From a virus: DNA of 26,439 nucleotides. Where the stretch lies: positions 1-26,439 of the IMG/VR virus record IMGVR_UViG_3300028590_000077; one strand, given 5' to 3'. A program made the position numbers and the translations under genes. The notes under the pieces were generated by a model. That model ran no database searches. It was not told the origin of the DNA and saw only the letters and a list, made by a program, of their open reading frames with translations. This document shows, one piece after another, positions 16,652 to 23,544 of the stretch; position 1 is the first letter of the stretch, and every line of letters begins with the position of its first letter.

Positions 16652-16727
16652 TGGCAAGGACGGAGGGAGTCGAACCCACAACACGCGGCTTTGGAGGCCG
16701 CTGCTCTGCCAGTTGAGCTACGCCCTT
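16652..16727 (-). tRNA. tRNA-Trp (anticodon CCA)
   Basis: A 76-base cloverleaf on the minus strand. The acceptor AAGGGCG (16727-16721) pairs with CGTCCTT with one G-T pair. There is a D-arm GCTC/GAGC and a 5-bp anticodon stem GCGGC/GCCGC around the loop CTCCAAA, so the anticodon is CCA. The T-loop is TTCGACT. The discriminator G and the CCA end are encoded. The T-stem (GTGGG with CCCTC) has a T-T mismatch at its second pair, a departure from bacterial tRNA-Trp. It sits inside the leftward phage operon between two small genes, so it is phage cargo and not an attachment-site relic. Confidence 0.9.
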
Positions 16728-18231: not shown

Positions 18232-18603
18232 TCAAGGGGCCAGTGGACGCCCGTTCAATGCGAACTCGATGTCTTCCAGCAGGTCCGGGTATTCGGGCAG
18301 CCGGGGGCGGCGTCCGGCGCAGTACAACCCGACGAGCCATCGCTGATTCCGGGTGACCAGGGATTGCGTGGTGGAGCTGTCCTCGGCCAGGACAAACACC
18401 CGGCCATCCTCATCCACCAGGACAAAACTGCCGCATCCGAGTGAGTTGCGGTTCTTCTTGATGCGGAAGGCGACCCGGCGCACGGCCACGTCGATTCCCT
18501 CGGTGGGCACGGAACCCACCTCTTTCATGGCTTTGCCGACGTAGTGCTGGGGCGATGCTCCGGGGGTGCGACGGCGGCGTGGAATGTGGGGTGTGGTACT
18601 CAT
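18232..18603 (-). CDS. Unknown 123-residue protein coupled to the helicase
   Basis: The ATG overlaps the helicase stop by 4 bases (ATGA). The N-terminal 20 residues are basic (PHIPRRRRTPG). The body has beta-type stretches such as CGSFVLVDEDGRVFVLAED, then RNQRWLVGLYCAG. It has two Cys (residues 57 and 95). No family is recognised. Coupling to the helicase suggests a replication-related accessory role, but nothing in the sequence shows it. Confidence 0.65.
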   Translation of the reverse strand: MSTTPHIPRRRRTPGASPQHYVGKAMKEVGSVPTEGIDVAVRRVAFRIKKNRNSLGCGSFVLVDEDGRVFVLAEDSSTTQSLVTRNQRWLVGLYCAGRRPRLPEYPDLLEDIEFALNGRPLAP

Positions 18604-20105
18604 CGGAAATCCTCCGGGTCAGGGTTATAGCTGCCAACACCGCCAGGGCGACGGTAGGTCTTTTTCTGCGGCTGGTTCTTTCCCCTGAACTGGAAGGAAC
18701 GGGCCGGTGGACCTGCATGGCTTTCAACCTCCTCCTCGGGGATTCGTTCGTCTCCCCAGTCGTCAATCCGCATGATGTCGAACCGTCCGCGCTGCTGGAC
18801 GACCGTGCCCGTCCGCACGTTCCGCCCCTTGCCGACGATGAACTCCACGACGCCGGGCCGGTCTTTCGCGTCGTAGGCGTCCCAGCGATGCATCAGGATC
18901 ACCACGTCGGCGGCTTCCTCAATAGCTCCCGAACCGCGCAGGTCCACCATCGTCGGCCGGCGTGCCTTGCCCTGCTCCGTCTTGGCGGCGCCGCGATTGA
19001 GCTGGGCCAGAATGACGATGGGGCAACCCAGCTCCTTCGCCAGCGCTTTCAGGTCTCGCAGGGCTTGTCCCCGCTCGATGACCTCCCCTTGCCGGCCGGG
19101 TAGAGCCATTTCGTGCAGGTGGTCCACCACAATGAGGCGGACTGGCTTTTGCAGGTGTAGGCGCCGGGCGCGAGCCGCAATCTGCCGGGAATTGAGCTGC
19201 GGCGAGTCGTCGATGTGGAGGTCGATGTCCCGCAGGCGGGAAACGGCTACCGTGACCTTGGCGAAGTTCTCGCTGTCCTCCTCGCTCGGCGCCATCATCC
19301 AGTCATGGGGGATTTCCCCTACCGCCGCCATGTCGCGGTTCACCACGGCGTCGGTACCCATTTCCATCGAAAACAGGAGCGTTCGCTGGCCGCGCAAGGC
19401 AGAGAATCGAGCCAGTTGGAATGCCGCAACGGACTTGCCGATATTCGACCGGGCGGCCAGCACAATCGCTTCACTGTCCTGCAGTCCGTAGAGCGCTTCG
19501 TTCAGGCCCAGCCAGGGAGTCGGCATCCCCCGGCCAATGGTCCCGCACGCTTTCCCGTTGAAGTTGGGCCACCACCGATCCACCGCCTCTCGGTAGGTGA
19601 TTGGGCCGCATTTGGGGCCGATGGCGAACCTCGCCATGTCGGTTTGTGCCTGGCTGAGGATGTCCGCGGCGCTGGACCCGCGAGTCTCAAACGCCTTGTT
19701 CACCAGCGCAGTGCCGATGTCGATGATCTGCCGGAGCTTCGACTTCTCCAACACGATCTCGGCATAGGCCACGACGTTCGCCGAGGAGAACGCATTGGCC
19801 TGTAGGTCCACGAGGTATGCGCCTCCATCGACCTCGCGCGCCTGCCCTTGCGCTGCGAACCAGTCCCCCAGCGTCACGGCATCGGCCGGCTTCTGCTTTT
19901 CGACGAGTTGCTGAATCCCGGCGTAGATCAGCTTGTGGCGCCGGTCGTAGAAGTCATCGTCGTCGAGGATCTCCACGATGTCCGGCAATCGCTCCGGAGC
20001 AACCATCAGGGCGCCGAGGACGTACTGCTCTGCCTCAATATTGGCCGGCGCGCGACGCAGCTCGTACAGCTGCTCTTCGCGAAGGGCGCGTGCTTCCAGG
20101 TTCAT
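18600..20105 (-). CDS. Replicative DNA helicase, DnaB family
   Basis: 501 aa. The N-terminal domain is recognisable (PANIEAEQYVLGALM, then DDDFYDRRHKLIYAGI), as is the RecA-type C-terminal domain. The Walker A loop is AARSNIGKS (about 217-225), somewhat changed from the usual ARPSMGKT. LFSMEMG is present. The Walker B region is LIVVDHLHEM (Asp 328). AQLNRG (about 367-372) and DLRGSGAIEEAADVVI (about 388-402) follow. Normal length for DnaB is about 460-470, and the extra C-terminal 40 residues are basic and Pro/Gln-rich. It should be loaded at the phage origin by the initiator encoded just upstream, whose stop overlaps this ATG by 4 bases (ATGA). Confidence 0.92.
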   Translation of the reverse strand: MNLEARALREEQLYELRRAPANIEAEQYVLGALMVAPERLPDIVEILDDDDFYDRRHKLIYAGIQQLVEKQKPADAVTLGDWFAAQGQAREVDGGAYLVDLQANAFSSANVVAYAEIVLEKSKLRQIIDIGTALVNKAFETRGSSAADILSQAQTDMARFAIGPKCGPITYREAVDRWWPNFNGKACGTIGRGMPTPWLGLNEALYGLQDSEAIVLAARSNIGKSVAAFQLARFSALRGQRTLLFSMEMGTDAVVNRDMAAVGEIPHDWMMAPSEEDSENFAKVTVAVSRLRDIDLHIDDSPQLNSRQIAARARRLHLQKPVRLIVVDHLHEMALPGRQGEVIERGQALRDLKALAKELGCPIVILAQLNRGAAKTEQGKARRPTMVDLRGSGAIEEAADVVILMHRWDAYDAKDRPGVVEFIVGKGRNVRTGTVVQQRGRFDIMRIDDWGDERIPEEEVESHAGPPARSFQFRGKNQPQKKTYRRPGGVGSYNPDPEDFR

Positions 20106-21055
20106 CGGTGGTACTGCCCTTCAATGATTTTCGTGAAGTTGGACTTCTTGACGATCCAGTCCAGCGACAGGGAGGTGAACGGGCCACGAGCGCCATTCGT
20201 CTCGCCCATCAGGAACTTGGACTCACGGATGTAGACCAACAGGTCGCGCCAGGACTCCACATTCTGGCGATCTGGCTGCTCACGCCACCGCTGGGCCAGA
20301 TGCTTGTAGCGCGCCTCATCCGAGTTCCACGTCTGCGGCTGGGGGAACTCGGGCATCAACTCCCGCCACAGCGCCAAAATGGCCTTGTGCGGGCATGGGG
20401 GGATGCGTTCCGCAGGAACGTTCCCCTCCTCCCCGTTAGGGGAGGTAAGTTCTAAAGGAGACGGAGTAGGAGAAGGTGTAGGAGACGGAGAAGGAGCAGG
20501 AGCGGGGGATGATGTTGATTGCGGGGTTACATTATCTTGTTGTGTCGAACCACCATCTTGTAGATGGTTTTTCTTATCTTGTAGATGCTCTACAAGATAG
20601 CTTCCGCCCCTCTCCTGGACCGAAAGTGGCGGCTTTCGCTTCTGTTCCGAGCGCCATTCCGCCAGCTTCCGCTCCACCAGTTCCGGGTCCTTGAAGTCGC
20701 GGGTGAGCTGCCCCCGCTTGGCGCGCTCGCTTCGTTGGGGTGCCGCCGCCGCGTAGGGATTGTGGATGGCCCAGTCGTGCATCCGGTACTCCCCTTCCCG
20801 ATCCCCGTCCAGCCAGCGCAGGTCAACCAGCGTGGAGACGAACTTTCCGGCATCCCCGCGCCAGCCGCTGGAGATTTCCAGGTCCTCGTTGGTGAGGCCG
20901 GCGAGATCACCATCAGGGCGCTGGCTGGCGGTGAACAAGAACAACTGCACGAGATTCCAGCCCGCCACGTCGCCCAGGCGGCGGCACAGCTTCACCGTCT
21001 TCGGATGCGTTGGCAGGCCCGTGTTGATGCGGGCGTCGGACGTACTGGCTGCCAA
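20102..21055 (-). CDS. Phage replication initiator (lambda O-like role), TTG start
   Basis: 317 aa from a TTG at 21055, two bases after the preceding stop and eight bases after GGAG. Earlier starts would run through the neighbouring gene. The opening INTGLPTHPKTVKLCRRLG, then WNLVQLFLFTASQRPDGDL, is typical of a phage replication protein family with a winged-helix N-terminus. Residues about 165-200 contain heptad repeats HLQDKKN, HLQDGGS and TQQDNVT, which encode DNA iterons. A Pro/Ser/Thr linker follows. The C-terminal 90 residues have LWRELMPEFPQPQTWNS and WRDLLVYIRESKFLMGE, resembling the helicase-loader-interacting end of such initiators. It overlaps the helicase gene and carries a likely origin within its coding region. 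Confidence 0.8.
   Translation of the reverse strand: MAASTSDARINTGLPTHPKTVKLCRRLGDVAGWNLVQLFLFTASQRPDGDLAGLTNEDLEISSGWRGDAGKFVSTLVDLRWLDGDREGEYRMHDWAIHNPYAAAAPQRSERAKRGQLTRDFKDPELVERKLAEWRSEQKRKPPLSVQERGGSYLVEHLQDKKNHLQDGGSTQQDNVTPQSTSSPAPAPSPSPTPSPTPSPLELTSPNGEEGNVPAERIPPCPHKAILALWRELMPEFPQPQTWNSDEARYKHLAQRWREQPDRQNVESWRDLLVYIRESKFLMGETNGARGPFTSLSLDWIVKKSNFTKIIEGQYHR
20406..20445. repeat. Two adjacent short hairpins inside the replication gene
   Basis: CGTTCC/GGAACG (20406-20411 with 20415-20420, 3-base loop) is followed by CCTCCCC/GGGGAGG (20428-20434 with 20439-20445, 4-base loop). Both are perfect. They lie about 90 bases from the iterons. Confidence 0.6.
20457..20504. repeat. Four 12-bp purine-rich tandem repeats inside the replication gene
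   Basis: The plus strand reads GGAGACGGAGTA, GGAGAAGGTGTA, GGAGACGGAGAA and GGAGCAGGAGCG in succession. On the coding strand these give a Pro/Ser/Thr/Ala linker. Strand asymmetry is strong (almost no C or T on the plus strand). The repeats may simply encode a flexible linker or be part of the origin. Confidence 0.7.
20533..20599. other. Iteron array, probable replication origin
   Basis: ATCTTGT begins at 20534, 20555 and 20576, exactly 21 bp apart (two helical turns). The second and third copies are the same for 12 bases (ATCTTGTAGATG). A fourth, inverted copy (20590-20599) forms a perfect 10-bp inverted repeat with the third (20575-20584). The stretch is AT-richer than its surroundings. Lambda-like phages keep their origin, with iterons bound by the initiator, inside the initiator gene. 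Origin function is inferred from that parallel. Confidence 0.65.
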
Positions 21056-22316: not shown

Positions 22317-22346
22317 ATTCTCAACCCATTGAGCAGGTAGTGTCAA
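22317..22346 (-). promoter_or_regulatory. Leftward early promoter (PR-like) for cro and replication genes
   Basis: On the minus strand TTGACA (22346-22341) is a perfect -35. GAGAAT (22322-22317) is a 4-of-6 -10 with an 18-base spacer. One operator overlaps the -35 and another covers the spacer and -10, so repressor binding would block it. The start would lie near 22310, about 20 bases before the cro ATG. Confidence 0.65.
22321..22335. promoter_or_regulatory. Repressor operator, cro-proximal
   Basis: TCAACCCATTGA followed by GCA. The outer TCAA/TTGA arms match the other three operators; the centre is imperfect. Its centre is 22 bp from that of the next operator, about two helical turns, which allows cooperative dimers. 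Confidence 0.62.
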
Positions 22347-22357
22347 TGCATTGAGCA
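22343..22357. promoter_or_regulatory. Repressor operator, cI-proximal, perfect 12-bp palindrome
   Basis: TCAATGCATTGA followed by GCA is a perfect palindrome in the cI-cro gap, overlapping the -35 of the leftward promoter. Confidence 0.72.
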
Positions 22358-22375: not shown

Positions 22376-23119
22376 ATGACCATGAATGTAAATACGCTTG
22401 CAGAACGCGCTCGTCTGGCTCGTCGCCGGCCTGGCTTCCCCAGCCAGGACGCGGCAGCCAAGGCGATCGGCTGCTCCCGCGGCACGGTAGGCATGTGGGA
22501 ATCGGGAGGTGCGTCGTCCATCGGCGAATACCTGTACGACGCGGCCAGGGTCTACAAGGTGCGGCCGGACTGGCTGCGCAACGGCGAGGAGCCCGACGGC
22601 TACCCGTGGGAACCCGAGGACGGGCGCCGGGTGCCGGTACGCGCCTACGAGGTCCGCGCGGTCGAGGGCGAGGAAGGCGTTGAGCCAGGCATGGAGGCGA
22701 TGGTGGAGGAAGTGGACGTGCTGCTGTCCGGTGGCCCAGGGACAGTCATCCCCGACTTCGTGGAGACGAAGTACCGGATGCCCTTCCAGATCAACTGGTT
22801 CAACCGGTTCCAGGCCAAGCCCGAGAACGTCAAGCTCATGCGGGTGAACGGCGACAGCATGGAGCGGACCGTGTTCGACGGCGACCGCGTGGCAGTCCAC
22901 CTGGCCGACCGCCGGGTGGTGGATGGGCGCGTGTACGCCATCATCGCGGGTGAAGCGAAGGTCAAACGCCTGTTCAGAATGCGGGACGGGGGATTGCGCA
23001 TCGTCAGCGACAACCCCGACAAGACCCTCTACCCCGACGAGATCGTGCCACCGAACGAGCTGGATTCGGTGTACGTCATCGGTCGTGTCATCGACAAGTC
23101 AGGCTCGGGCGGCCTCTAA
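22376..23119 (+). CDS. cI: CI/LexA-type phage repressor (helix-turn-helix plus S24 peptidase domain)
   Basis: 247 aa. The N-terminal helix-turn-helix is SQDAAAKAIGCSRGTVGMWE (about residues 23-42). The C-terminal S24 domain has VNGDSMERTVFDGDRVAV with the nucleophile Ser at about 161, and GEAKVKRLF with Lys at about 197. I see no Ala-Gly or Cys-Gly dipeptide in the linker (about 75-130), where LexA and lambda CI cleave, so RecA-driven self-cleavage is uncertain. The ATG at 22376 has a second ATG two codons on and no visible ribosome site, which allows a leaderless message as with lambda PRM. It should hold the early promoters silent by binding the four TCAAT-type operators. Confidence 0.88.
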   Translation: MTMNVNTLAERARLARRRPGFPSQDAAAKAIGCSRGTVGMWESGGASSIGEYLYDAARVYKVRPDWLRNGEEPDGYPWEPEDGRRVPVRAYEVRAVEGEEGVEPGMEAMVEEVDVLLSGGPGTVIPDFVETKYRMPFQINWFNRFQAKPENVKLMRVNGDSMERTVFDGDRVAVHLADRRVVDGRVYAIIAGEAKVKRLFRMRDGGLRIVSDNPDKTLYPDEIVPPNELDSVYVIGRVIDKSGSGGL

Positions 23120-23435: not shown

Positions 23436-23450
23436 TGCTCAATAGATTGA
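23436..23450. promoter_or_regulatory. Repressor operator before the secreted-protein gene
   Basis: TGC followed by TCAATAGATTGA, palindromic except at the centre. It matches the cI-cro operators in the opposite orientation of the TGC/GCA flank. A TTGACG at 23466-23461 on the minus strand could be the -35 of a leftward promoter, with the operator over its -10 region (TATTGA, weak). Confidence 0.7.
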
Positions 23451-23512
23451 CGGCAGCTATCGTCAACGCACTGTCAATCGAAAGATTCCATTGAGCGTGA
23501 AATGTAAATATG

Positions 23513-23544
23513 TTGACATCAAATGCTCAATTGATTGACATTAT
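23513..23544 (+). promoter_or_regulatory. Rightward early promoter (PL-like)
   Basis: A perfect -35 TTGACA (23513-23518) stands upstream of an operator. The -10 is poor: CATTAT at 20 bases or TGACAT at 17 bases. The message would start about 30 bases before the first rightward gene. Confidence 0.45.
23524..23538. promoter_or_regulatory. Repressor operator before the rightward operon
   Basis: TGC followed by TCAATTGATTGA, palindromic apart from the central pair. It lies between the -35 and the likely -10 of the rightward promoter. The rest of 23395-23580 holds no gene, but it has further half-sites (TGTCAAT at 23472, CATTGAGC at 23489). Confidence 0.72.

Follow-up and report, generated by a model that had tools for sequence, protein, structure and literature searches.

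A segment in the middle of a phage replication initiator gene is probably (we put the chance at roughly 0.88) a replication origin of the lambda/P22 type, lying in the linker-coding part of the gene and built on a new iteron of its own. The window analysed here is the whole of IMG/VR virus record IMGVR_UViG_3300028590_000077 (26,439 nt), and a sequence-only reading of it had proposed a probable phage origin at an iteron array in this gene, a reading that the present analysis supports. Repeats and codon choice revealed that selection in the window's initiator gene acts on the DNA and not only on the protein. The features concerned are as follows.

18600–20105, minus strand: gene for a replicative helicase of the DnaB family, overlapping the initiator gene at its end (Pfam DnaB_C 5e-54, DnaB N 1e-29)
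20102–21055, minus strand: O-like initiator gene with TTG start, about 317 aa, comprising N-domain, linker and C-domain (PHROG replication-protein matches at 5e-20 and weaker)
20678–21055, minus strand: N-terminal domain, presumed DNA-binding, phrog_9474 (45–59% identity to relatives)
20105–20422, minus strand: C-terminal DnaD/O-like domain, presumed to recruit the helicase (phrog_22470, 5810, 10469 and 345, plus alignment)
20534–20540, plus strand: iteron copy 1, partial, ATCTTGT
20555–20565, plus strand: iteron copy 2, ATCTTGTAGAT, within a 17-bp dyad at 20552–20568
20576–20586, plus strand: iteron copy 3, ATCTTGTAGAT
20588–20598, minus strand: iteron copy 4, inverted, ATCTTGTAGAG on the minus strand
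20575–20599: perfect 11-bp inverted repeat formed by copies 3 and 4, loop TGC
20457–20602: region of A/T-wobble codons spanning iterons and tract, the presumed unwinding region (37 of 48 linker codons end in A or T, 7.6 expected)
20457–20505: tract of 6-bp period, 86% purine on the plus strand, encoding PAPAPSPSPTPSPTPS
20428–20445: perfect 7-bp hairpin CCTCCCC-GTTA-GGGGAGG, loop GTTA
20406–20420: perfect 6-bp hairpin CGTTCC-GCA-GGAACG, loop GCA

The identification of the gene as a replication initiator is borne out by its O-like and DnaD-like PHROG matches and by the adjoining dnaB. The N-domain matches phrog_9474, the C-domain phrog_22470, 5810, 10469 (DnaD-like helicase loader) and 345 (O-like), and the order of N-domain, linker, O/DnaD-like C-domain and then dnaB is that of P22. 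Translation probably starts at the TTG at 21055, because relatives begin M-(S/A)-T-DAR. An AF2 model of the N-domain, which in an origin of this type would be expected to have a DNA-binding winged-helix fold, is helical (pLDDT 80.5), and its best match in BFVD is a phage replisome organiser (E 4.5e-9); a PDB fold search with this model gave no match at E<0.001, and sequence and fold comparison with solved structures yielded nothing usable for the N-domain or the C-domain. Elsewhere in the record, a tRNA-Trp (CCA) gene lies on the minus strand at 16652–16727, between phage terminase genes.

The iteron array occupies the middle of the gene, where the linker joining the N- and C-domains is encoded. 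ATCTTGT starts on the plus strand at 20534, 20555 and 20576, and both this exact 21-bp phasing and the heptads encoded by the direct copies (HLQDKKN, HLQDGGS and TQQDNVT) are as the sequence-only reading had described them. The inverted copy, ACAAGAT, is at 20592. It had been said to form a perfect 10-bp inverted repeat with the third copy; the pairing is indeed perfect, but the arms, TATCTTGTAGA and TCTACAAGATA, are 11 bp each. The iteron itself has a dyad form, with copies 2 and 3 both reading ATCT-TGT-AGAT (11 bp, matching ATCT-NNN-AGAT) and copy 2 extending to the 7-bp dyad ACCATCT-TGT-AGATGGT; copy 4 keeps the dyad with one mismatch, while copy 1 is without the second half and matches the other iterons over 7 bp only. 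The stretch is AT-richer than its surroundings, as had been noticed, with a GC content of 0.366 at 20530–20600 (gene 0.611, record 0.648), and the 95-mer from 20509 ties for the lowest GC in the record.

A DNA site with a function other than an origin, such as an operator for a repressor or autoregulator, a site for partition or a structure formed by the initiator mRNA, could equally well account for dyads and hairpins, but we consider it improbable. The 10-mer ATCTTGTAGA is found in the whole record at 20555, 20576 and 20589 (minus strand) only, and the likely repressor operators differ from it: TGCTCAATNNATTGACA occurs at four sites (0.28 expected by chance) around 22319–22357 and 23436–23540, flanking a cI-type repressor gene at 22376–23119. 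Identity of the iterons with operators of the cI-cro region was rejected, since the sites there are TGCTCAATNNATTGACA and the iteron 10-mer is absent. Moreover, the position of the array matches that of the lambda and P22 origins, its score in the repeat test described below is similar to theirs, and a mid-gene operator in so many relatives, differing by lineage, would be odd.

Still less probable is that the repeats are a feature of the protein, with HLQD heptads spread by tandem duplication through a disordered linker and no role for the DNA. The 21-bp unit does correspond to seven codons and is followed by a run of dipeptides such as slippage would produce; however, the inverted copy encodes SYLVE, not HLQD, despite being an exact 11-bp complement, and codon choice in the window iterons is extreme. 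The excess of A/T at wobble positions is found both in the iterons (18 of 23 codons) and in the tract (13 of 16), whereas the rest of the gene is close to expectation (50 of 258, 46.5 expected), and rare codons cluster in the iterons (CTA 2%, CTT 3%, ACA 4%, GTA 6%). Relatives also argue against a protein origin, as their repeats are unrelated and out of frame or consist of one site found in two frames, and synonymous substitutions are scarce in iteron codons. That the repeats arose by chance, given that copy 1 is short and that AT-rich DNA is expected to contain more repeats, has a negligible probability and is statistically refuted: the gene has 17 pairs of 8-mer repeats against a mean of 3.1 and a maximum of 16 in 20,000 synonymous recodings with phage codon usage (0 as high), none of 5000 synonymous recodings that kept the protein and followed phage codon usage contained an inverted repeat of 11 bp or longer, and within-gene shuffling of synonymous codons, which keeps the gene's own AT-rich codons, gave a mean of 2.5 and a maximum of 8 pairs in 400 permutations.

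We collected about 130 initiator relatives. No close relative of the window phage was found, and a look-up with the full protein or DnaB gave no initiator relative that could be confirmed among viral or genome contigs, and one distant helicase. Alignment of the N-domain was needed to reach relatives and yielded 47 loci from Stenotrophomonas, Comamonadaceae and viral contigs, which share 45–62% with the window over the N-domain only; alignment of the C-domain added 80 further loci, and nine phage records were included. Several unrelated C-domains occur among the N-domain relatives, but a linker followed by an SP-type tract is present in every one with a full-length gene. Because the same N-domain and linker are joined to several unrelated C-terminal domains (L133 to L180), recognition of the origin and recruitment of the helicase appear to be modules that can be exchanged.

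The main iteron of the N-domain relatives is TGCYANTAGCA, found 68 times in linkers and once elsewhere when up to one mismatch is allowed and near-identical loci are included. Its commonest spacing is 21 bp, and its matches fall in two reading frames (41 and 27). Some relatives carry TGCTACAAGCA, which has CTACAAG in common with the window's ATCTACAAGAT. Viral contigs were also scanned for paired CTACAAGAT, but the matches were set aside, as their contexts were chance-like and none encoded an initiator relative. Three 11-bp copies of the ATCTACAAGAT type plus an inverted copy were observed at L062 1118–1148 and L068 10056–10086, between unrelated podovirus-like genes.

The repeat test was extended to 96 dereplicated genes, the window included, from loci that are not independent in ancestry. 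Among the 95 relatives, 61 were significant at p<=0.05, 37 of them at the minimum p; the other 34 were not significant, at least partly because the test needs exact 8-mers. Lambda O, P22 18, HK75 O and the initiators of phi_D3 and fLi-Aba02 were all positive at p<=1/401. The window dnaB and six other window genes were far from significant, and of 62 downstream genes none reached p<=1/401 and 3 reached p<=0.05, about the chance level. Xanthomonas phage Rb1, whose DnaB has the highest identity among the phage matches listed (40%), has an initiator gene upstream of DnaB (L262 1518–2465) with no repeat signal; such an origin is therefore not universal among these genes, and the Rb1 origin may be located elsewhere or be of a different type.

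The repeats of the relatives are concentrated in the same part of the linker. In the 60 nt before the tract (48 genes), we counted 101 out-of-frame direct repeats against 4.2 expected and 71 inverted repeats against 5.2, and for 46 C-domain relatives without a tract the counts were 140 and 138 against 6.1 and 5.8 expected, in two adjacent 60-nt bins 61–180 nt before the C-domain. Hairpins are in excess in the repeat-rich part of the linker and just after it, and across the family the frequency of A/T at wobble positions is raised in the iterons and the tract (z up to 10.4), an excess that stops close to the C-domain. The proposal that the iterons are selected as DNA is thus strengthened, because relatives carry a site in two frames and out-of-frame repeats in the same linker. 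Conservation of iteron bases at synonymous positions, suggested earlier as a check, was examined in family clades rather than on the window's own iterons, and the result was favourable in three of them: synonymous differences per same-residue codon pair were 0.18, 0.00 and 0.11 in the iteron block against 0.42, 0.22 and 0.48 in the N-domain, and random codon sets matched such conservation in 2, 0 and 0 of 20,000 draws. In clade B the synonymous drop starts ahead of the chosen block, and its edge is not sharp.

Next to the iterons lie the tract and the hairpins. Both perfect hairpins within 20406–20445 reported by the sequence-only reading are real. Its four 12-bp purine repeats at 20457–20504 are the DNA encoding the PAPAPSPSPTPSPTPS run, which has a 6-bp periodicity and is 86% purine on the plus strand. 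The tract has a GC content of 61% although its wobble positions are A/T; the iteron region is a GC minimum of the record. A tract of 6-bp period directly after the iterons was found in the window and in other linkers, in 48 of the 96 dereplicated initiator genes in all, and many of its hexamers are near A-N-R-G-R-K on one or the other strand. GC hairpins follow the tract in the window and at the same place in relatives, and a CPPDGE or TPPxGG peptide that recurs in many unrelated initiators may be hairpin read-through. The dipeptides of the tract vary by lineage (SP, QE, DT, TE, TG, EK, DS).

The hexanucleotide tract beside the iterons in half of the genes is possibly new with respect to the open-licence PMC literature. 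A tentative generalization, which we regard as more doubtful than not, is that O-type initiators have as their linker a DNA module of three parts that is translated as well, made up of iterons, a purine/pyrimidine-biased hexanucleotide tract acting as an unwinding or initiator-loading element, and a GC hairpin. What is kept in the recurring tract would be the DNA rather than the peptide, because the dipeptides that it encodes are unrelated (SP, QE, DT, TE, TG, EK). A role of the tract as a DNA element is offered as a suggestion only, as hydrophilic linkers also yield purine-rich codons.

For the origin itself, we propose a mechanism modelled on lambda/P22-type relatives. The N-domain, probably as a dimer, would bind the dyad iterons, of which the three direct copies, 21 bp apart, would present one face of the helix, with one inverted copy in addition. 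The bound complex may then strain and open the stretch at 20457–20602, with its weak wobble pairs and strong purine/pyrimidine bias, after which the C-domain would recruit the phage DnaB-type helicase encoded by the next gene.

From sequence alone, the analysis locates a putative origin in an uncultured phage, and its controls retrieve the known lambda and P22 origins. The same permutation of synonymous codons could serve to find origins across many phage records in which an initiator gene lies upstream of a DnaB helicase gene. A constraint on the DNA, with each lineage having its own iterons, is a possible reason for the repetitive and fast-diverging middle of these proteins.

The likeness to lambda drawn by the sequence-only reading, an origin inside gene O, holds and extends to P22; lambda O and P22 18 were positive in the same test as the window gene. 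Lambdoid phages have their origin midway in gene O, with inverted repeats as iterons, and a plasmid derived from phage P27 no longer gave transformants once two iterons had been altered synonymously (PMC7466680). In lambda (NC_001416), the annotated iterons at 39034–39118 have spacings of 20, 24 and 23; a purine-rich AT tract comes after them, and beyond it an inverted repeat. Lambda and the window thus have in common inverted-repeat iterons in the middle of the initiator gene (20–24 bp apart in lambda) and, in the direction of the gene, the order of iterons, biased tract (AT/purine-rich in lambda, AT-wobble/purine-biased in the window) and inverted repeat or hairpins. However, lambda has four direct 18-bp iterons where the window has three direct and one inverted 11-bp site, its loader gene P contrasts with the phage's own DnaB helicase in the window, and the window tract, unlike that of lambda, is AT-rich at wobble positions only.

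Other phages show related arrangements. In Pseudomonas phage MD8, repeats have been reported inside the O-like gene (PMC8508860), which belongs to a lambda-like O/P pair, whereas the window pairs an O-like initiator with DnaB. Bacillus phage SPP1 has oriL in gene 38 (PMC6316719); likened by description, it shares with the window direct repeats inside the initiator gene, and its AT-rich unwinding region there would correspond to the presumed one of the window, but SPP1 differs in that gp39 serves as a separate loader and that there is a second origin, oriR. P22 and phage L carry different iterons inside gene 18, with a DnaB-type helicase gene adjoining (PMC8022706). Like the window, P22 (gene 18 and gene 12) and phage L (gene 18) have an O-like initiator gene that contains iterons within its coding sequence and is succeeded by a DnaB-type helicase gene, although the iteron sequence and N-domain of the window differ from theirs and there is no close sequence likeness. 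The window is a further case of the known lambda/P22 arrangement, with its own iteron sequence.
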